Below, piece by piece: positions 1-8,318 of a DNA stretch of 64,000 bases. The notes below the pieces were generated by a model that was not told the origin of the DNA, ran no database searches, and saw only the letters and a program-made list of their open reading frames with translations. Position 1 is the stretch's first letter, and every line of letters starts with the position of its first letter. Source of the stretch: Burkholderia cepacia ATCC 25416 (GTDB lineage Bacteria > Pseudomonadota > Gammaproteobacteria > Burkholderiales > Burkholderiaceae). A program made the position numbers and the translations under genes. The stretch covers positions 1,674,001 to 1,738,000 of the forward strand of contig NZ_CP012981.1 of NCBI RefSeq assembly GCF_001411495.1, written 5' to 3'.

Positions 1-2
1 GT

Positions 3-539
3 ACGCTGCCGCACGTGCTGCATGTCGGGCTGCGCGAGGCGTCGGTGTTCGCGCCGCTGCAACTGCTGACGAGCGTGCTGCGCACCGAGGCGTCGAATGG
101 GCAGCCGGGCGCCGGCGCGATCGTGAACGCACTCGGGCAGGCGCTGCTCGCGTATGCGTTGCGCGCATACGGTCGTGGCGCGCGCGTGCCGTCCGGCTGG
201 CTTGCGCTCGCTGCCGATGCGCGGCTCGGCCCGTCGGTACAGGCCGTCCTGCAGGCACCGGAGAAGCCGTGGACGGTCGAGTCGCTCGGCGACACATCCG
301 CGATGTCGCGTGCGACGTACGCCCGGCATTTCCGCGAGCGGGCCGGAATGAGCGTCGGCGCGTTCGTCGCGCAGATCCGGATGATGCATGCGTGCGCGCT
401 GCTGCAGGACACGCAGCGCGGGCAGGCGGAGATCGGGCAGGCGGTTGGTTACCAGTCGGAAGCCGCGTTCGGCAAGGCGTTTCGCGCGGTGCTCGGCACG
501 ACGCCGGGGCGCTGGCGACGCGCGCGGCGCGAATCGTAA
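3..539 (+). CDS. AraC-family transcriptional regulator, 5' end cut by window
   Basis: The reading frame is open to the left edge, and the codons before the first possible GTG (15) read on in the same frame, so the gene starts outside the window. The last 100 residues form an AraC-type double helix-turn-helix: first helix near TVESLGDTSAMSRATYARHF, second near IGQAVGYQSEAAFGKAFRAV, ending in the usual GTTPGRWRR. The visible part before it fits the end of a cupin-type sensing domain (LHVGLREASVFAPL), as in the cupin_6 AraC subgroup. DNA-binding activator or repressor; its ligand cannot be seen. The next gene is on the same strand 100 bp downstream. Confidence 0.85.
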   Translation, partial: TLPHVLHVGLREASVFAPLQLLTSVLRTEASNGQPGAGAIVNALGQALLAYALRAYGRGARVPSGWLALAADARLGPSVQAVLQAPEKPWTVESLGDTSAMSRATYARHFRERAGMSVGAFVAQIRMMHACALLQDTQRGQAEIGQAVGYQSEAAFGKAFRAVLGTTPGRWRRARRES

Positions 540-641
540 GACTGCAAGCAAGCCGTCTTGCCGCGTGCCAAAGCTGCTACCATGCGCGAAACGCAGTTCA
601 ACGAAAACGATTTCGAACAAGAAGAAAGAGAGGGCAAAGCA

Positions 642-1085
642 ATGAACCAGACCACCATCCAGCAACCGTCGTTCGCGTTCGTGGCCGCGTCGTGGGCCGC
701 GCTGCTCGCCGGTTTCGCGGCATTCCTGATCGGTCTCTGGAACGCCGGCATGCAGCTCAACGAGAAGGGCTACTACTTCACCGTGCTGGTGTTCGGCCTG
801 TACGCGGCGATCTCGCTGCAGAAGAGCGTGCGCGACCGCGCGGAAGGCATTCCCGTCACCGGCATCTACTACGGCCTCAGCTGGATCGCGCTGCTGCTGT
901 CGATCGCGCTGCTGATCGTCGGCCTCTTCAATGCGACGCTGCAACTGAGCGAGAAAGGCTTCTACGCGATGTCGTTCGTGCTCGCGCTGTTCGGTTCGGT
1001 GGCCGTGCAGAAGAACACGCGCGACCTGCAGAACGCGAAGCCGCGCTATACCGACGCCGAATCGGCGCCGTCCGTCCAGGAGTGA
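642..1085 (+). CDS. YiaA/YiaB-family inner membrane protein
   Basis: A 147-residue protein with four predicted membrane segments (about 13-30, 43-60, 75-96, 105-122). It is built from two copies of the yiaA/B module: GLWNAGMQLNEKGYYFTVLV in the first half is echoed by GLFNATLQLSEKGFYAMSFV in the second, each followed by a cytoplasmic QKxxRD stretch. I chose the ATG at 642, preceded by a purine-rich AAGAAAGAGAGGG site, over an upstream in-frame ATG that would add 28 charged residues. Family members are small inner-membrane proteins of unknown function, sometimes linked to stress survival. Confidence 0.8.
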   Translation: MNQTTIQQPSFAFVAASWAALLAGFAAFLIGLWNAGMQLNEKGYYFTVLVFGLYAAISLQKSVRDRAEGIPVTGIYYGLSWIALLLSIALLIVGLFNATLQLSEKGFYAMSFVLALFGSVAVQKNTRDLQNAKPRYTDAESAPSVQE

Positions 1086-1223
1086 CCACACGCGAAGCGG
1101 GCGCCTTCCGGGCCGCCCGTTTTGCGATGACGGTCGCGGGCGACCCGCATCCGCCAATGCGCGCGGGCTCGCCGCCCATTCGTTTCATCCATGCCGTCGC
1201 GCATGACGATGGAGACATTCAGG

Positions 1224-2288
1224 ATGCCGGACATCACGGAAACCTCGCCGCGCACGCGCACGGCGGCTCACGCCGTGGCGGCGAGGGCCGCGCTCGTGCT
1301 GGAAACGAACAACCTGCGCGGCGGTGCCGGCCTCGCGCAGGCCGTCGATAGCCTGAAGCGCCTCGTTTCGGCGCTGTCGAAGCAGACCGTGCCGCCCGCG
1401 GCACTCGCGCAATGGATCATTACGCACGACGGGCTGCCGGCCGATGCGTGCGCGGAGATCGTCGTGCTGGCCGGCCGCCCGATCGACTTCGTCGAGATCG
1501 GTGCGAGCACCGGCTACTACGATGCGAAGAACGACGGGTTCGATCGCGTCGACGCGGATCGCTGCGACATCGTCGTGTTCGGCGATGCCGATTGCCGGCC
1601 GGCCGACGACTGGCTCGAGCACCTGCTCGCGCCGTTTGCACGCGAAGCCGGCGATGCACCCGTCGCGGTGGCGGGGCGCACGAGCTATGCGCCGAACGTG
1701 CTCGGCGTCGCGCTGACGTCGATCGATTTCATGTATTTCCCGAGCCCGCTGCGCGCCGGCGCAACGCGCAACTTCTACGCGAACAACGTCGCGTTCCGGC
1801 GCGACGTGTTCGCGCAATTTCGCTACGAGCCGCTCGACGGTGTCTATCGCGCACATTGCCAGGTGATGGGGCTGCGGATGCAGGCGGCCGGCGTGGCCGT
1901 CGAATTCGCGCCGGCCGCGCATACCGAGCATCGGCTGCCGGACACGCATCGCGAATCGCTGAAGCTGCGCTGGATGCGCGGAGAGGACAGCGTCGGGCTG
2001 ACGCCGTATCTCGTGAACGCGTACCTGCCGCGCGGATGGCAGTGGCTCGGACGCAGCGGCCCGCTCGGACCGTTCTGCGTGATGGCGATGCGGCTCGGCT
2101 ACAGCCTGCGCGCGCTCGATCGGCAGCAGTTGCCGCGGCTCGGCGCCCTTCGTTATCTCGCGGCCGTCGGCGTCACGATCGCGGCGTCCGCCGTCGATAC
2201 GCTCGGTGCGCTCGCGCGCGGTTTCGGTCTCGTCGGGCGCGCATCGGCCCGGCGCGATCTCGAAGCGCTGTCCTATCACCGTCATTGA
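1224..2288 (+). CDS. Family 2 (GT-A) glycosyltransferase, first gene of a lipid/glycan operon
   Basis: A 354-residue GT2-type enzyme. The nucleotide-sugar/metal DxD motif is DAD at 121-123 (VVFGDADCRP). It is followed by NNVAFRRDVF (about 187-196), typical of the acceptor-side loop, and RWMRGEDS (about 249-256), which resembles the Q/RxxRW region of processive or lipid-acceptor GT2 enzymes. A hydrophobic stretch near 310-335 could associate with the membrane. The ATG at 1224 has GGAG 9 nt upstream; earlier in-frame ATGs lack a site. First gene of a run of six that continues with 64 bp spacing and then overlapping stops and starts. Donor and acceptor are unknown. Confidence 0.75.
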   Translation: MPDITETSPRTRTAAHAVAARAALVLETNNLRGGAGLAQAVDSLKRLVSALSKQTVPPAALAQWIITHDGLPADACAEIVVLAGRPIDFVEIGASTGYYDAKNDGFDRVDADRCDIVVFGDADCRPADDWLEHLLAPFAREAGDAPVAVAGRTSYAPNVLGVALTSIDFMYFPSPLRAGATRNFYANNVAFRRDVFAQFRYEPLDGVYRAHCQVMGLRMQAAGVAVEFAPAAHTEHRLPDTHRESLKLRWMRGEDSVGLTPYLVNAYLPRGWQWLGRSGPLGPFCVMAMRLGYSLRALDRQQLPRLGALRYLAAVGVTIAASAVDTLGALARGFGLVGRASARRDLEALSYHRH

Positions 2289-2352
2289 ACCGGCGCCGCG
2301 CATCGCGCGCGGCCACGACACGCCGCACCCTGCCTTCATTCCGTCCACGACC

Positions 2353-3369
2353 ATGCCTTCTCTTGCCACCCGTGTTGCCTGCGTCGCCCTGTTTGCCGCC
2401 AGCGCCGGCGCCCATGCCGCGCCGGTCGATTACGCGGGGCGCGGGATCTACCACTTCGCGTCGCAAAGCGGCTGCCCGTTCGCGAACGCGGCCGCCGCCG
2501 ACTGCAATCGCGTCGCGCTCGATGCGCCCGACGTTCACGCGAGCATCGATACCGATGCGCACGCGATCGTCTTCTCGAGCGATGCGACGCGCCGCACGAA
2601 GGACGTGCTCGGCGACGTGCTGCTTCAGGGCACGGGCGTCGACCGCGACGGCCGGCGCGTGCCGTTGAGCGTTCACGTGCTGCTGCGTCGCGACGGCGCG
2701 AAATGGGACCGTGACGTGTACGTACATGCGCCCGTGCACGGCACGTTCACCGATGTCCGGATCGATCCGTATCGCGTGCGCGTGAAGGAGGGCGATGGCG
2801 AGCACGACGTGCTCACGCCGGATGAAACGCTGGCGCTGTTCGCGCATCCGTCGCTGGCATCGCGGCTCGCGCGGCATCTCGTGAAGGTGAGCGCGACCGA
2901 TCCGAAGCAGCCGTCCGCGGACGACATCACGATCGCACTCGGCGTCGGCGGCCTGACGAAGTCGGTCGCGCGCGCGAGTTTCACGTCGAGCGCGCCGCAC
3001 GATGCGGACGTCGATCAGGCACTGGCATCGGGTACGTGGTCGATCCGTTTTGACGCACTGAGCAATCACATTCCGGTGTGGGTCGCGCAGCGCGAGCTGT
3101 TCCTGTTCGGTCTCGACGGCAGTGCGCTGCTGAAAGACGTGCGCGAGCGCGGTTTCCGCAAGAGCGACCGGATCGAATTCGGCGCGCGCGACGGCAACGG
3201 TTATCTGCGCGTGAACGGCCGCGAGGAGGCATTCGCGGGGGCGACCGCGTCCGCGCATGCGTTCATGCAGGAAAGCTTCATCGGCCTGATCCTCGGATGG
3301 CGTCGCGATCCGGCCGCCGCCGCGGCATCCGCGACGAAATCCGCGTCCGCACGGGGCGTGCCGGCATGA
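2353..3369 (+). CDS. Secreted protein of unknown function, second gene of the lipid/glycan operon
   Basis: A 338-residue protein with a clear Sec signal peptide (ATRVACVALFAASAGAHA, cleavage after about residue 22), so it is periplasmic or outer-membrane associated. I do not recognise a domain. The mature part is mixed alpha/beta with few cysteines (CPF and DCNR near the start) and ends in an Ala-rich tail. It lies between the GT2 and the diiron protein, and its stop overlaps the next start (ATGA at 3366), so it is translated together with cytoplasmic and membrane enzymes of the same unit. It may handle or transport the product on the periplasmic side, which is inference. Confidence 0.7.
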   Translation: MPSLATRVACVALFAASAGAHAAPVDYAGRGIYHFASQSGCPFANAAAADCNRVALDAPDVHASIDTDAHAIVFSSDATRRTKDVLGDVLLQGTGVDRDGRRVPLSVHVLLRRDGAKWDRDVYVHAPVHGTFTDVRIDPYRVRVKEGDGEHDVLTPDETLALFAHPSLASRLARHLVKVSATDPKQPSADDITIALGVGGLTKSVARASFTSSAPHDADVDQALASGTWSIRFDALSNHIPVWVAQRELFLFGLDGSALLKDVRERGFRKSDRIEFGARDGNGYLRVNGREEAFAGATASAHAFMQESFIGLILGWRRDPAAAAASATKSASARGVPA

Positions 3370-4115
3370 CCGCGGCAGGTGAACTGCCCGCGTCGCCGCC
3401 GGCGGCGCTCGATGGGCGCTTCGACTGTCTCGATGCGCCCGCGCCGCGCGGTGCGGCGCGGGTGCGTGCGTACCTCGTCGATCGCATCAAGCGGGCGGCG
3501 ATCCGGCAGCTTCATCGCAGCACGCATGGCGAGCGCTGGGTGCTGCGCATGTACCTGATCGGCGAGGAAGCGACCGAGTGCGCGTTGCACGAGGACTGGA
3601 CCGGCCAGCCGCCGGACTGGCTCGCGCCGCGGATCGAGCAGCATCTCGCGGACGAGCGTCGCCATGCGGCCGCGTTCGCCGATGCGCTGCGCGCACGCGG
3701 CGTCGCGCCGTCGACCGCGCCGCACGAGCCGGACTGGCTGAGCCGGCGCAAGATCATGCGGTGGCGCCGGCTCGCGCGGCGCCATGCGCCGCATTTCGCG
3801 CAAGGCGTGCTCGTGCCGGCCTATGCGACGGGGCTGTGCGCGGAACAGATGGCGATGCGCGTGCTCGCGCGCCACTGCGCGACGATCGGCGTTGCCCATC
3901 CGCTGTATCCGCTGCTCTCGCGCGTGCTCGCGGACGAGACGCGGCACGTCCGGCTCTGCGCGGACACGCTGCGCCGTCTCGTCGCGCCGTCCGAGGTTGC
4001 GCGGCTCGCCGCGTTGCTGGACGAGATCCGCGCGATCGAAGCCGGTTTCGGCGTGACGGGCGCGCTGGCGATGTACGCGGCCGGCTGGCTCCAGTCGCTT
4101 CGTCCGCGCGCATGA
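3366..4115 (+). CDS. Ferritin-like diiron protein
   Basis: A 249-residue helical protein carrying the full ferritin-like diiron ligand pattern: E67/E68, E97-R-R-H100, E160, and E191-T-R-H194 (two ExxH motifs each preceded by a lone Glu about 30 residues earlier). This is the four-helix oxygen-activating or rubrerythrin-like arrangement. Enzymes of this type hydroxylate, desaturate or oxidise substrates using O2. Starts inside the stop of the upstream gene (ATGA) and its own TGA overlaps the next ATG, so it is firmly part of the operon that also encodes a membrane desaturase. The substrate is unknown. Confidence 0.7.
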   Translation: MTAAGELPASPPAALDGRFDCLDAPAPRGAARVRAYLVDRIKRAAIRQLHRSTHGERWVLRMYLIGEEATECALHEDWTGQPPDWLAPRIEQHLADERRHAAAFADALRARGVAPSTAPHEPDWLSRRKIMRWRRLARRHAPHFAQGVLVPAYATGLCAEQMAMRVLARHCATIGVAHPLYPLLSRVLADETRHVRLCADTLRRLVAPSEVARLAALLDEIRAIEAGFGVTGALAMYAAGWLQSLRPRA

Positions 4116-5269
4116 TGCCGCGGATCGTCTATCTCGCGACGGCCGACGCGCGCGGCCACCTGATGCGCGCACAACTGCTCGTGCATGCGTTGCGCTCGGC
4201 CGGCGCGCAGGTCGACGTGCTGACGACGTCCGATGCGGGGCAGGCGTTCCTGGCCGCGTTCGACATCGACGCAGCCGTGCTGTCCCGTCACTACGCGGTG
4301 CAGTTCGACGAGCGGCAGAACATGCTGCGCGATGCGACCGATCGCAATGTCGCGCATTACGTGTTCCGGCCGACGCGCATGCTGCGCGACATCGCGCGGC
4401 TGCGTGCGATCGGTCGCGATGCCGATCTCGTGATCAACGACTCGTTCCATCCGGCGCTGCTGTTCATGGGCGCGATGCCGAGCTGGCGGCACCGCGTCGT
4501 GCACGTGTACGGCGGCAGCCTGCGCCGCGCGTTGACCGCGAATTTCGATGCGCGGCTGCCGCGTGTGCTGGCGCGCGCTTTCGCACGGATCGTCGACTGG
4601 CAGATCGATTCGGCGCGGTGCTGCATCGAACACGATTTCGCATACGATGCCGCCGACGAAGTCCGGCGGGCCCACGCGCATTGCCGGCTGCCGACTCCGG
4701 TGCCGATCGTCGCCGAACGGCCGGCCTCGGAGCCGGCCGCCGCAGCCGTCTATCTGAATCCGCACTTCCGCGATATCGCGCTCGCCGATGCGTTGTCGGC
4801 CGGCATGCGCGACGCGGGGCTCGCCGCACACCGTGTGGGCGAGGGCTATGCGGGGCACGACGGCTGGACCGGCGTCGACGCCGACTGGGTGACGCGGGCC
4901 GCCCACGCACCGCTGATCGTGTCGGCCCCCGGCATGGCCGCACTGTCGATCGCACGCGTGTATCGCCGCCCGATCCTGCTCGTGCAGTCCGACCAGCCCG
5001 AGCAGGCGAGCAACGCCGCACGCGCCGCACGCCTGCAACTCATGCACCGCGTTGTCACATGGCGCGGCGATGCGGCCGCGTTCCGGCGGGAAGTCGGGCA
5101 GGCCGCGGCCGAGCTGATGCGCGATCCCGGTACGCAGGCTGGAACGATCGCCGGCCGCGAGCATGCGCGTGCGCGCGTGGATGCGTGGACGTCGCGCCTC
5201 CTCGCGCTGCGTCCGTGTGCGCAGGTGGCCGATGCGGATACGCGATGCGAGGCGCCGGCGCCACGATGA
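4112..5269 (+). CDS. GT-B-type glycosyltransferase-like protein
   Basis: A 385-residue protein with the outline of a GT-B (MurG/GT1/GT28-like) fold. The N terminus has a Rossmann strand and a GHLMRAQLL motif comparable to the GHxxR acceptor loop (residues about 15-23). The C-terminal half has SAPGMAALSIARVYRRPIL and then QPEQASNA, comparable to the nucleotide-sugar site GxG..E....G.P.l....EQ..NA. No signal peptide or membrane segment. ATG at 4112 overlaps the upstream TGA, and the stop at 5269 overlaps the next ATG. It could transfer a second sugar to a lipid acceptor made by the operon, which is inference. Confidence 0.65.
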   Translation: MMPRIVYLATADARGHLMRAQLLVHALRSAGAQVDVLTTSDAGQAFLAAFDIDAAVLSRHYAVQFDERQNMLRDATDRNVAHYVFRPTRMLRDIARLRAIGRDADLVINDSFHPALLFMGAMPSWRHRVVHVYGGSLRRALTANFDARLPRVLARAFARIVDWQIDSARCCIEHDFAYDAADEVRRAHAHCRLPTPVPIVAERPASEPAAAAVYLNPHFRDIALADALSAGMRDAGLAAHRVGEGYAGHDGWTGVDADWVTRAAHAPLIVSAPGMAALSIARVYRRPILLVQSDQPEQASNAARAARLQLMHRVVTWRGDAAAFRREVGQAAAELMRDPGTQAGTIAGREHARARVDAWTSRLLALRPCAQVADADTRCEAPAPR

Positions 5270-5883
5270 ATTCGCTGTCGTTTCGTGACGATCGCCGGCC
5301 CGATATCCGGCAGATGCTGGCCGCGACGTTCGGCATGGCAGCCGGCCTCGCGATCTTCTTTCTGCTGGAGCGCGGCGTCACGCCGCGCCATGTGTTCGCC
5401 ACGGCGATCGATGCACGGATTCCGTTCATCGCATGGTCGTGGTTCGTCTATGTCGGCTTCTTTCCGTTCGTGATTGCGCTTGCCGGGTATGCCCGGCCGC
5501 CCGCGTTCGCCGCGTTCAAGGAAGCGGTGCTGATCGCGTTCGTGCTCGGTGTCGTGTGTTTTCTGCTGTTTCCGGAAGCCGTGCCGAGACCCGACGTCGC
5601 GGAGATCGGCAACGCGTTCGTACGCCACCGCCTCGCGCGCATGTGGCAGCTCGATCTCGCGGCCAACGGCTTTCCGAGCCTGCACGTCGCGGTGACGTGT
5701 CTGGCCTGCCGGATGCTGGCGGACCAGCGGCGGCTCGTGACCGTGACGGTCGGCCTGCTGATCTGCACGTCGACGCTGACGCTCAAGCAGCATACGGTCG
5801 CCGATGTACTGGGCGGCGTGGCGCTCGCGATGGTCAGTGCGCGGTGGGTCGAGCGGCGTTCGCTGCGCAGGAGGCTCGCCTGA
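5266..5883 (+). CDS. PAP2-superfamily membrane phosphatase/phosphotransferase
   Basis: A 205-residue integral membrane protein with about five hydrophobic segments. PAP2-type catalytic motifs are visible: NGFPSLHVAV (PSLH at 137-140) and KQHTVADVLGG (H176 and D180). The arrangement resembles the PAP2_3 or inositol-phosphorylceramide-synthase-like branch rather than classic type 2 PAP, because the first KxxxxxxRP motif is not obvious. Such enzymes dephosphorylate lipid phosphates or transfer phospho-head-groups. Start at 5266 overlaps the upstream stop; the stop overlaps the desaturase start (TGATG). An alternative ATG at 5245 adds seven residues. Confidence 0.75.
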   Translation: MNSLSFRDDRRPDIRQMLAATFGMAAGLAIFFLLERGVTPRHVFATAIDARIPFIAWSWFVYVGFFPFVIALAGYARPPAFAAFKEAVLIAFVLGVVCFLLFPEAVPRPDVAEIGNAFVRHRLARMWQLDLAANGFPSLHVAVTCLACRMLADQRRLVTVTVGLLICTSTLTLKQHTVADVLGGVALAMVSARWVERRSLRRRLA

Positions 5884-6827
5884 TGGATACCCGTGTTCAC
5901 CCGGCCGGGCCGAATGCCGAGCTGGCGCGGTTCGTGCCCGATCCCGCGTTGTTTCGCGTGAGCGCGGCGCGTGTCGGTGCGGCGCTGGCGGGCGACTGGC
6001 TGTTGATTGCCGCTGCGTTCGCCGTTGCGATCGCGTTTGCGCATCCGCTCGTGTACGCGTTGGCCGCGGTCGTGATCGCGCGCAGCCAGCTGGCGCTCGC
6101 GGTCATGATGCACGAAGGCGCGCACGGGTTGCTGGCGCGGAACCGGCGCGTCAACGACGCGCTGGGCCAGCTGTTCGCGGCCGGCCCGCTGTGGCTGTCG
6201 CTGCGTACGTATCGTGCAGGCCATCTGAAGCACCATCGCGCGCCGATGCAGCCGGACGATCCCGTCGCGCTGCTGTTCGGCGTGCACGACTATCCGGTGA
6301 CGCGCGGGCGCCTGATCGGTCGCCTGTTCGCGTACGCATGCGGGATCGGTTACGTGACGAGTGTCGTGAAGCTCGCACGCGGCGAGTTCGCCCATGCGTT
6401 GCCGAAGGTCGGGAAGTCGCGCGCGTATGCCGCGTGGGAGGTCGTGTCGATGCTCGCAGGCAACGGTGTGCTGCTCGGTGCGCTCGCGTGGGCCGGACAT
6501 CCGCTGCTGTACGTCACGTTGTGGATCGTGCCGTCCGTCACGCTGCTGCCGCTCGCCGGGCAGGTGCGCGCGATCTTCGAGCACGCGGGGCTGCCGGCAG
6601 GTGCCGACCAGAGCCGCAACGCGCGCACGATCGCCCGGCGTTCGTGGCAGACGTTCCTGTTCGGCCCGCACGCGATTCATTTTCATATCGAGCATCACCT
6701 GTTCACGCGGATGCCGTTCCATCACCTGCCGGCCGTGCATCGGCAGCTCGTGCAGCGGCAGTTGCTGCCTGACGGCAATCTGTACGCGGGATATGGTGCG
6801 GTGCTGCGCGACGTCAGCGTGCGTTGA
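5883..6827 (+). CDS. Membrane fatty acid desaturase/hydroxylase family protein
   Basis: A 314-residue membrane protein with the three His boxes of the membrane-bound di-iron desaturase family: HEGAH at 77-81, HLKHH at 114-118 and HIEHH at 268-272. Hydrophobic spans lie around 36-72, 95-110 and 190-225. This family introduces double bonds or hydroxyl groups into acyl chains, sphingoid bases or carotenoids at the cytoplasmic membrane. Last gene of the six-gene run; its ATG overlaps the PAP2 stop. Pairing with glycosyltransferases and a PAP2 enzyme suggests a modified glycolipid or head-group product, but the substrate cannot be read from sequence. Confidence 0.8.
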   Translation: MDTRVHPAGPNAELARFVPDPALFRVSAARVGAALAGDWLLIAAAFAVAIAFAHPLVYALAAVVIARSQLALAVMMHEGAHGLLARNRRVNDALGQLFAAGPLWLSLRTYRAGHLKHHRAPMQPDDPVALLFGVHDYPVTRGRLIGRLFAYACGIGYVTSVVKLARGEFAHALPKVGKSRAYAAWEVVSMLAGNGVLLGALAWAGHPLLYVTLWIVPSVTLLPLAGQVRAIFEHAGLPAGADQSRNARTIARRSWQTFLFGPHAIHFHIEHHLFTRMPFHHLPAVHRQLVQRQLLPDGNLYAGYGAVLRDVSVR

Positions 6828-6871
6828 CGCGTGGACGGGACGGGAATCATGAGCGGATCGATACCGGGAAC

Positions 6872-7240
6872 ATGATGGTCGACAAGCCTGCGAGGTTCAA
6901 TTGCGTGGCGCTGGCGATCGGCGCGATCCTGGCGGTGTGGGGGTGCGGAAACGATCGACGAACGGGGCTCGCGGTTATCGGATCGTCCGTTGCCGTGCAG
7001 GGGACGGTCGTCCGGTTGACGCACGACGCGCATCACCCGTTGATCGAGTTCGTGACGAAACGCGGCGAACGCGTATCGTTTCCGGGAAGCTTCGTGACGA
7101 TGGCGTTCGGTGACACGGTGCCGGTGCGCTACGACCCGGCCAGGCCGCAAGCCAGCGCAACAGTCGACACGTTCACGAACATGTGGCTCGAGTCGATCAT
7201 CTCGATCGCGTTCACGATGGCTTTCTTTGCGCCGGCTTGA
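6872..7240 (+). CDS. DUF3592-like small membrane protein
   Basis: A 122-residue protein with an N-terminal hydrophobic segment (about 9-25) and a C-terminal one (about 108-120). Between them is a small beta domain of the DUF3592 pattern: VQGTVVRLTHD, PLIEFVTKRGERVSFPG, then FGDTVPVRYDPARPQASATVD. Function unknown. I chose the ATG at 6872 (GGGAA just upstream, a second ATG directly follows) over a TTG at 6824 that overlaps the desaturase stop. It may be cotranscribed with the upstream operon, 44 bp away, but shows no functional link. It is followed by a hairpin shared with the convergent tRNA gene. Confidence 0.6.
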   Translation: MMVDKPARFNCVALAIGAILAVWGCGNDRRTGLAVIGSSVAVQGTVVRLTHDAHHPLIEFVTKRGERVSFPGSFVTMAFGDTVPVRYDPARPQASATVDTFTNMWLESIISIAFTMAFFAPA

Positions 7241-7335
7241 AGGGAAAGTCGCTTCTGCCGAAGCCGGGGGGAGGGCGCTGGGTAGTGCGGCAGGCATCGC
7301 GGAGATGCCTGCCATCGACACGGATGCGACAGACG

Positions 7336-7361
7336 CAAAAAAGCCTCCGCTTGGGAGGCTT
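7336..7361 (-). terminator. Rho-independent terminator of tRNA-Lys
   Basis: An 8-bp stem (7341-7348 with 7354-7361, AAGCCTCC/GGAGGCTT) with a 5-nt loop. On the minus strand it is followed by a run of U, so it ends the tRNA transcript about 25 bp past the CCA. It can also stop transcription coming from the DUF3592 gene on the plus strand. Confidence 0.8.
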
Positions 7362-7383
7362 TATTTGCACTATCAAAGATAGT

Positions 7384-7460
7384 TGGTAGGGTGGGAGGGA
7401 CTCGAACCCTCGACTCTCTGATTAAAAGTCAGATACTCTAACCAACTGAGTTACCACCCC
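7384..7460 (-). tRNA. tRNA-Lys (UUU)
   Basis: Minus-strand cloverleaf. The acceptor arm starts GGGGUGG; the D arm is ACUC...GAGU with the GGUU loop; the anticodon stem UCUGA/UCAGA encloses the loop CUUUUAA, giving anticodon UUU (Lys, reads AAA/AAG). The T arm contains GGUUCGAGUCC and the 3' CCA is encoded (7384-7386). A consensus promoter lies upstream and a terminator downstream, so it is a single-gene transcription unit. Confidence 0.97.
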
Positions 7461-7523
7461 ACGTTCTTGAAACCTGTCGGTTCGTTGCTTGAACAACTTG
7501 GGCAACGACCCAAAGAGCAAAAG

Positions 7524-7552
7524 ATTATAGCGACGGGGTGTCAGGCTGTCAA
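7524..7552 (-). promoter_or_regulatory. Consensus sigma70 promoter of tRNA-Lys
   Basis: On the minus strand TTGACA (7547-7552) and TATAAT (7524-7529) are separated by exactly 17 nt, a perfect match to the sigma70 consensus. The expected start is near 7517, giving a leader of about 57 nt before the tRNA. It is squeezed between the tRNA and the stop codon of cpoB. Confidence 0.85.
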
Positions 7553-7568
7553 CAACCCGCAGCGATAA

Positions 7569-8318
7569 TTATTTGATCGTTTCAAGCTTGCCTTGCGCCG
7601 TCTGTGCAGCATTCGACCCGGCGTACTGCGAAACGACCTGCTCGAACGTCTTCTTCGCGGCCGCCTTCTGGCCTTGCTCGAGCTGGTTCGTGCCGATCGC
7701 CACGAGGGCATCGGCCGCGCGCGGGTGCTGTGGGAACTTGCTGACGATCCCTTGCCACGTTGCAGTCGAACCGCGGTAGTCGCGCAGTGCGTATTGCGCA
7801 TTGCCGTACCAGTACTGCGCGGTCGGCTGGTAGGGGCTCTGCGGATACTTCGCGATGAACGCGCGGAACGAAGCCGCGGCCGCCTTGAAGTTGCCGTTGC
7901 GGAACTGCTGTTGCGCCGCATTGAGCGCATCCGTTTCACCCGGCTGCACGGTGCCTTCGACACCATCGATCGTCGCCTGCTGCGGCTCGAACTTCTTGAG
8001 CCGCGTGTCGAGATCCTGGTAGTACTCCTTCTGCTGCCGTTCGAGCGTCGTCAGCCGGTTCGTCAGATCCTCGTTCTCGCCGCGCAGCGTCGCGACCTGC
8101 TGGTTCAGCTGGTCGAGACGGCCGGATTGATCGAGGATCGTACGCTGGGCGGCCGACAACTGGCTGGCCAGGTTGTCGGTCTTGGTGCGCAGATCGAGCA
8201 CGGCGCGGCGCGCTTCGTTGTCGTCGAACACGCCGGCGTGCGCCGGCGCGACCGACCACGCCGCGCCCGCGACGCAGAATGCTGCGGCAACGCGCAGCAG
8301 GGATACACGGTGCGTCAT
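7569..8318 (-). CDS. cpoB: Cell division coordinator CpoB (YbgF), Tol-Pal associated
   Basis: A 249-residue periplasmic protein with a signal peptide ending APAHA (about residue 28), an N-terminal coiled coil (about 30-110; many heptads such as LDQLNQQVATLRGENEDL) that trimerises in the family, and C-terminal TPR repeats (about 130-245, e.g. AAQQQFRNGNFKAAAASF and AQYWYGNAQYALRDY). CpoB links the Tol machine with PBP1B so that outer-membrane constriction and septal peptidoglycan synthesis proceed together. Last gene of the tol-pal operon, 19 bp after pal. Confidence 0.93.
   Translation of the reverse strand: MTHRVSLLRVAAAFCVAGAAWSVAPAHAGVFDDNEARRAVLDLRTKTDNLASQLSAAQRTILDQSGRLDQLNQQVATLRGENEDLTNRLTTLERQQKEYYQDLDTRLKKFEPQQATIDGVEGTVQPGETDALNAAQQQFRNGNFKAAAASFRAFIAKYPQSPYQPTAQYWYGNAQYALRDYRGSTATWQGIVSKFPQHPRAADALVAIGTNQLEQGQKAAAKKTFEQVVSQYAGSNAAQTAQGKLETIK

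Follow-up and report, generated by a model that had tools for sequence, protein, structure and literature searches.

Which product requires two glycosyltransferases (GTs), a secreted protein, a diiron protein, a membrane phosphatase and a desaturase encoded side by side? The question is raised by six adjacent genes on the + strand at positions 1224-6827 of a 64,000-nucleotide stretch (the window) of the Burkholderia cepacia ATCC 25416 genome (8.6 Mb, 4 contigs). A sequence-only reading of the window had described them as one operon for a modified glycolipid or lipid. The coordinates bear out the layout, with a 64-bp gap at the first junction followed by overlaps of 4, 4, 4 and 1 bp, and the junction spacing is similar at related Burkholderia loci. 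Our results confirm that the operon is real and not a chance assembly, because gene order and strand recur in distant genera (77 loci) and because the ratio of nonsynonymous to synonymous substitution rates (dN/dS) is 0.11-0.37 for every gene. They also show a co-inherited core of a GT2 glycosyltransferase, a GT-B glycosyltransferase and a diiron protein with a fold like that of MiaE, usually accompanied by the secreted protein.

Conservation of the core as a unit

The loci were obtained by scanning 84,980 species genomes with patterns from the profile of the diiron protein, i.e., all 77 were found via the diiron gene. They fall in 14 named genera of Beta- and Gammaproteobacteria, the larger groups being Pseudomonas (24), Variovorax (21), Burkholderia (16), Amphritea (3), Paraburkholderia (2) and Janthinobacterium (2). 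Bordetella, Azonexus, Achromobacter, Comamonas, Serratia, Duganella, Pseudoduganella, Xanthomonas and an Oxalobacteraceae bacterium contribute one locus each. The conserved order is GT2, secreted protein, ferritin-like diiron protein and GT-B. With tblastn, GT-B was found beside the diiron gene at all 77 loci and GT2 at 76, the exception being a locus that starts inside the diiron gene (L076) and is also uninformative for the secreted gene. The secreted gene is present at 71 loci and was not found at five (L035, L071, L073, L077 and L078), and the GT2 reading frame is interrupted at one locus (L020). The neighbourhood search that the sequence-only reading had proposed as a check thus returned a block that recurs across two classes, and a chance grouping in close relatives is not supported. 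In rough gene calls on the flanks of 32 loci, among the 40 largest families none but the operon's own occurred in more than 4 of 15 genera.

Reverse scans gave the same picture. Among 65 genomes of the genus Burkholderia, the diiron protein has a strong match in 27 (partial in G355), and it is these 27 that also match GT2 in full; these counts leave out weaker matches to the diiron protein (G333) and to GT2 (a second match in G303, and G314, G320, G333-G336, G340 and G350). Across 250 genomes of the order, full-strength GT-B, diiron or GT2 matches occur in the B. cepacia genome itself only, with weak matches to the GT-B profile in one genome (E 4e-4) and to the GT2 profile in 15 (best E 2e-21). 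Among 299 genomes of the phylum, the diiron gene was likewise found in this genome only. Since the diiron and GT2 genes share the same 27 genomes and are nearly absent from the order and phylum samples, the core is a rare gene set that travels together; the 77 loci show it to be an evolutionary unit.

Pairwise distances among the six genes correlate at 0.92-0.98. Such correlations fit co-inheritance, but are equally expected from shared species history. A tree built jointly from GT2, the diiron protein and GT-B of 37 hand-chosen loci out of the 77 (FastTree, midpoint root) places Serratia inside Pseudomonas, divides Pseudomonas into two clades and, with low support, puts Xanthomonas among the Oxalobacteraceae. 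These groupings point to horizontal transfer. In Burkholderia the operon lies between yiaA and ybgF, and deletion scars were found between these two genes in at least three operon-less genomes (G335, G334 and G320; loci L103, L104 and L105). In G335 a GT2 fragment runs straight into the desaturase gene, of which the final three fifths remain, G334 has GT2 pieces only, and G320 has GT2 pieces together with a short tail of the desaturase gene. The scars show that the operon has been lost in some lineages. The dN/dS values, calculated against the B. puraquae, B. anthina and B. stagnalis loci, show purifying selection on each of the six genes, and the catalytic motifs are intact.

The core proteins

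The diiron protein has the E-ExxH-E-ExxH ligand set of MiaE-type nonheme diiron monooxygenases. The residues concerned (E67, E97xxH100, E160 and E191xxH194) are invariant in 184 or 185 of 185, i.e., in all sequences with letters at these positions, and the helices at 53-77, 87-110, 149-174 and 181-205 make up a ferritin-like bundle. The overall fold of the predicted model resembles MiaE (fold comparisons rest on results from the pdb_via library). MiaE hydroxylates the isopentenyl (prenyl) group of a modified tRNA base. However, the diiron protein is only 15-16% identical to MiaE and differs from it in having an extra invariant His93, other invariant residues and two GT neighbours. The genomic context speaks against a role on tRNA. 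The closest named diiron proteins in a scan of genome contigs, 94% identical, are those of B. puraquae and Burkholderia sp. D-99.

Pfam weakly links the diiron family to the AurF N-oxygenases (PF11583), with matches for 25 of 25 members (best E 9e-9), and many relatives carry the PF11583 tag in the search listing; the window protein itself scores 23.2 bits, under the cut-off of 29.6. The AurF signature includes a third His, the seventh ligand, four residues before the last ExxH. At this position (187), 180 of the 185 diiron sequences carry V and the other 5 carry I, so that the protein lacks two marks of an AurF-type N-oxygenase, the seventh-ligand His and a Pfam score above the cut-off. Unlike the AurF/HrmI/VlmB-type enzymes, the diiron protein instead has an invariant His four residues before the first ExxH. 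This H93 (window 3366-4115) mirrors the third-His position of AurF, and it could be a seventh ligand of the diiron site.

GT2 passes the Pfam Glycos_transf_2 cut-off of 23.3 bits (Table 1), and its residues D121, D123 and D255 are invariant in 191 of 191 sequences. GT-B scores 16.7 bits with Glyco_transf_4, below the cut-off of 28.5, and weak Pfam matches to GT4, GT1 and GT28 are found among 22 members of its family. The best-matching of the distant GT2 relatives (L106 5936-6955, genome G513) adjoins genes that by eye are thyA- and folA-like, and the 13 kb around it gave no match to other proteins of the window operon. In Janthinobacterium, a GT1/GT28-type glycosyltransferase (L056 6656-7963) lies directly upstream of GT2, and the same family is found upstream in L058 and L063.

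The secreted protein matched no Pfam family. Its N-terminus resembles a signal peptide by eye and was not flagged by the hydropathy scan. Residues of about 180-325 resemble chalcone-isomerase-family folds, including the plant fatty-acid-binding proteins FAP1 and FAP3. The match is below the trust level, and a chalcone-isomerase/fatty-acid-binding-like C-terminal half is suggestive only. Homology to 25 bacterial Chalcone_3 sequences was insignificant. YceI, which is present in the B. cepacia genome, was considered as a candidate for the N-terminal half.

PAP2 and the desaturase as an accessory module

The last two proteins of the operon pass their Pfam cut-offs, i.e., 27 bits for PAP2_3 and 29.7 for FA_desaturase (PF00487), and both contain membrane stretches by hydropathy. 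The PAP2 motif residues PRPD, PSLH and HxxxD are kept in 31-33 of 33 sequences. In the desaturase, eleven histidines are invariant in 40 of 40 sequences, including those of the three boxes (H77, H81, H114, H117, H118, H268, H271 and H272). Its best NCBIfam match is GntB, the guanitoxin arginine hydroxylase of the FA_desaturase superfamily, at 94 bits, far below the cut-off of 380. The domain set of the sequence-only reading was thus recovered, with GT2, PAP2 and the desaturase above the Pfam cut-offs and GT-B and the diiron protein below theirs.

The desaturase gene was found at 41 of the 77 loci and not at 36, and the PAP2 gene at 33 and not at 44. One locus (L026) ends within GT-B and is uninformative for both, and another (L056) is counted with the desaturase on tblastn, despite a start-codon problem in gene calling. 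The core tree has two main clades. PAP2 occurs in one of them only, and the desaturase stands beside the core also in the other, in Oxalobacteraceae and Xanthomonas. These results show that PAP2 and the desaturase form an accessory module. Of the single six-gene pathway first proposed, the GT2-(secreted)-diiron-GT-B part is conserved, and PAP2 and the desaturase are accessory to it.

A second cluster linked to the core

The operon of Pseudomonas sp. ANT_J12 (L022) lacks its own PAP2 gene, and a gene for a 486-amino-acid PAP2-FA_desaturase fusion ends 59 bp upstream of GT2. Compared with the window proteins, the desaturase part of this fusion is 31% identical and the PAP2 part 26%. The fusion family occurs in Pseudomonas, Burkholderia and Paraburkholderia, with 111 proteins at E <=1e-3, many of them full-length and others of desaturase length only. 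In the B. cepacia genome the fusion lies on another contig (C2) than the operon, and its PAP2 half scores 20.3 bits, under the cut-off of 27.2. It belongs to an eight-gene cluster, here called cluster 2, which also encodes a Rieske oxygenase, a second desaturase, a GH3 amide synthetase, a PF10118 protein and two GNAT-like proteins, only one of which has a Pfam GNAT match, below cut-off. The eighth member is a hydrolase-like open reading frame that matched no Pfam family. Relatives of all eight genes, 53-64% identical and with order and strands the same, lie directly upstream of the core in ANT_J12. Pseudomonas sp. NPDC087342 has a diiron homologue (P0045) and a fusion (P0249), each listed on a contig of 121,947 bases. 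Within the genus Burkholderia, the fusion is present in 13 of 27 core-bearing genomes versus 2 of 38 others (Fisher p 7e-5, uncorrected for kinship). One of these two core-less genomes is the scarred G320, and G360 is a genome with the fusion and without the core. The core and cluster 2 may cooperate where both occur.

In outline, the ornithine-lipid hydroxylases OlsC, OlsD and OlsE resemble the proposed system in the O2-dependent tailoring of an envelope aminolipid, and they belong to enzyme families other than those of the window operon. The GH3 protein of cluster 2 has a single NCBIfam match at E 0.01, to OlsH, at 39.2 bits and thus short of the equivalog cut-off of 620. As outlined in PMC12493201, OlsH is a GH3-like enzyme that makes N-acyl ornithine in the OlsH/OlsI ornithine-lipid pathway of Singulisphaera. 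The likeness to that outline is a family-level match of the GH3 enzyme in cluster 2, which is linked to the operon in one Pseudomonas; unlike the pathway as outlined there, the window operon contains no GH3 gene.

Possible products of the operon

The sequence-only reading named no described pathway with this gene set, and Pfam, NCBIfam and PADLOC did not supply a pathway name either; none of the six proteins matched a PADLOC anti-phage model at E 0.01. Profile searches of the PDB with all six proteins gave no convincing solved-structure relative, as two had no row at E 0.1 and the others one to three rows with E 0.02-0.08, to de novo designed or unrelated proteins. Full-text literature searches, judged on titles and the start of abstracts, listed no paper on the gene set. 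The enzymes come from known families, and their combination is new to us.

We infer the product, the substrate and the order of steps as follows. The favoured product is a lipid, and the operon would encode a conserved route for the synthesis and placement of an envelope lipid that is glycosylated and oxygen-modified, a tentative reading that we hold to be just short of probable. The lipid is favoured because of the PAP2-desaturase fusion family, the FAP-like fold of half of the secreted protein (below trust) and the abutment of cluster 2 on the core in one Pseudomonas. The conserved block, its co-inheritance, the intact motifs and the MiaE-like fold are also counted for it, as are the dN/dS values, the diiron homologue and fusion listed for NPDC087342 and the higher frequency of the fusion in core-bearing Burkholderia genomes. 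The lipid product of the sequence-only reading is in this way retained, without its single six-gene pathway. Working at the cytoplasmic face, GT-B and GT2 would transfer sugars to a lipid acceptor, and the diiron protein would use O2 to hydroxylate its chain or head group. The desaturase might put a double bond or a hydroxyl into the lipid chain, and PAP2 might take off a lipid phosphate to leave a free hydroxyl or a recycled carrier, so that in one clade the lipid would be tailored by the two at its chain and its phosphate. The secreted protein would bind the hydrophobic part of the product in the periplasm. In some species, cluster 2 might supply or further modify an amide-linked lipid acceptor. 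One finding weighs against this link: outside Burkholderia, the fusion was found at E 1e-30 only in ANT_J12, and 38 of 39 core-bearing genomes lack it (39 of 61 such loci tested). The core can therefore do without cluster 2.

Alternatively, the core could make a small soluble glycosylated metabolite, e.g., a signal, a siderophore-like compound or an antibiotic, oxidised by the diiron protein, with PAP2 and the desaturase only tailoring or tolerating it. The patchy and apparently horizontally moved distribution, with Serratia within Pseudomonas and Pseudomonas in two clades, is typical of specialised metabolism, and the Pfam link to AurF and the nearness of the desaturase to GntB among the NCBIfam models agree with this. 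However, the core contains no carrier, synthetase or transporter gene, PAP2 and the desaturase have membrane stretches and occur as fusions, and half of the secreted protein has a weak match to a lipid-binding-type fold. We therefore regard a soluble metabolite as somewhat unlikely.

A modification of surface polysaccharide or of the lipopolysaccharide core via a polyprenyl-phosphate carrier, recycled by PAP2, is unlikely. Such a role would agree with the weak NCBIfam scores of GT2 to the exopolysaccharide GT EpsD (37.5 bits of 370) and the mycofactocin GT (34.1 of 280), with that of PAP2 to undecaprenyl-diphosphate phosphatase (17.7 of 229), with a weak hydrophobic stretch of GT2 towards its C-terminus (near residues 306-331 by hydropathy), and with the action of MiaE, the nearest fold, on a prenyl group of tRNA. 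On the other hand, flippase, polymerase, ligase and sugar-nucleotide genes are absent from the operon and from the nine annotated flanking or related proteins, and PAP2 was not found at 44 of 77 loci, one of which is cut before it.

It is very unlikely that a GT2/diiron/GT-B pathway and a PAP2/desaturase lipid module with unrelated functions were joined by chance in one clade, as the single-clade PAP2, the 36 loci where no desaturase was found and the fusion in core-less G360 would allow, since the genes overlap tightly in Burkholderia, the PAP2 and desaturase distances correlate at 0.95-0.98 with those of the core genes, and the other clade, too, has a desaturase adjoining the core, in Oxalobacteraceae and Xanthomonas.

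Under the favoured envelope-lipid reading, a further and doubtful step is that core and cluster 2 together represent an unreported lipid class, i.e., an amide-linked, multiply O2-modified glycolipid made by a portable 3-to-13-gene pathway across Beta- and Gammaproteobacteria, with a periplasmic chalcone-isomerase-like lipid carrier.

Genomic setting

The positions of the features are collected in Table 1. The operon is preceded by yiaA and an AraC-type regulator. It is followed by a short, weakly DUF3592-like gene, a tRNA-Lys and then, on the other strand, the ybgF/pal/tol region (ybgF, pal and tol named by eye). No consensus sigma-70 promoter was found in window 1000-7500, and the same interval holds one terminator-like site, which is below the number given by shuffles. 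Rfam reported only tRNA on window 1-8000. A phosphate-starvation box was tried by eye only and not retained. In several Pseudomonas loci (L018, L021, L027 and L031), a similar TTTGAATA...TGTGAT stretch was seen by eye 5' of GT2, and it is possibly a candidate promoter. In the Pseudomonas alcaligenes group, GT-B is followed by a 771-amino-acid protein (L070 11874-14189) that has an agarase-CBM-like match and falls just short of the GH42 cut-off.

Table 1. Features of the operon region and of cluster 2 (window positions unless given otherwise; aa, amino acids).
Feature	Position	Strand	Remarks
Intergenic region 5' of operon, 3' of yiaA; presumed promoter region	1086..1223	+	position only
GT2 (GT-A) glycosyltransferase, core gene	1224..2288	+	354 aa; Pfam PF00535 33.9 bits; in 76/77 loci
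Secreted protein	2353..3369	+	338 aa; signal-peptide-like N-terminus by eye; C-terminal half possibly of chalcone-isomerase/fatty-acid-binding-like fold
Ferritin-like diiron protein, MiaE-like fold, core gene	3366..4115	+	249 aa
GT-B-like glycosyltransferase (GT4/GT28-like), core gene	4112..5269	+	385 aa; weak Pfam matches; in 77/77 loci
PAP2 (PAP2_3) membrane phosphatase, accessory module	5266..5883	+	205 aa; Pfam 51.2 bits; in 33/77 loci
Three-histidine-box FA_desaturase/hydroxylase-type enzyme, accessory module	5883..6827	+	314 aa; Pfam 126.5 bits; in 41/77 loci
Cluster 2 of the same genome	L148 2290-11192 = contig C2 about 1771289-1780191		eight genes

Significance

The core order is kept across two classes and brings up to two O2-dependent iron enzymes together with two sugar transferases, which points to an envelope compound that, as far as the literature search shows, has not yet been tied to genes. 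The pathway is small and testable, and it is carried by Pseudomonas and Variovorax strains that lend themselves to gene deletion and lipid analysis. Amphritea and Comamonas have a minimal three-gene form, which would be a natural start for reconstitution.

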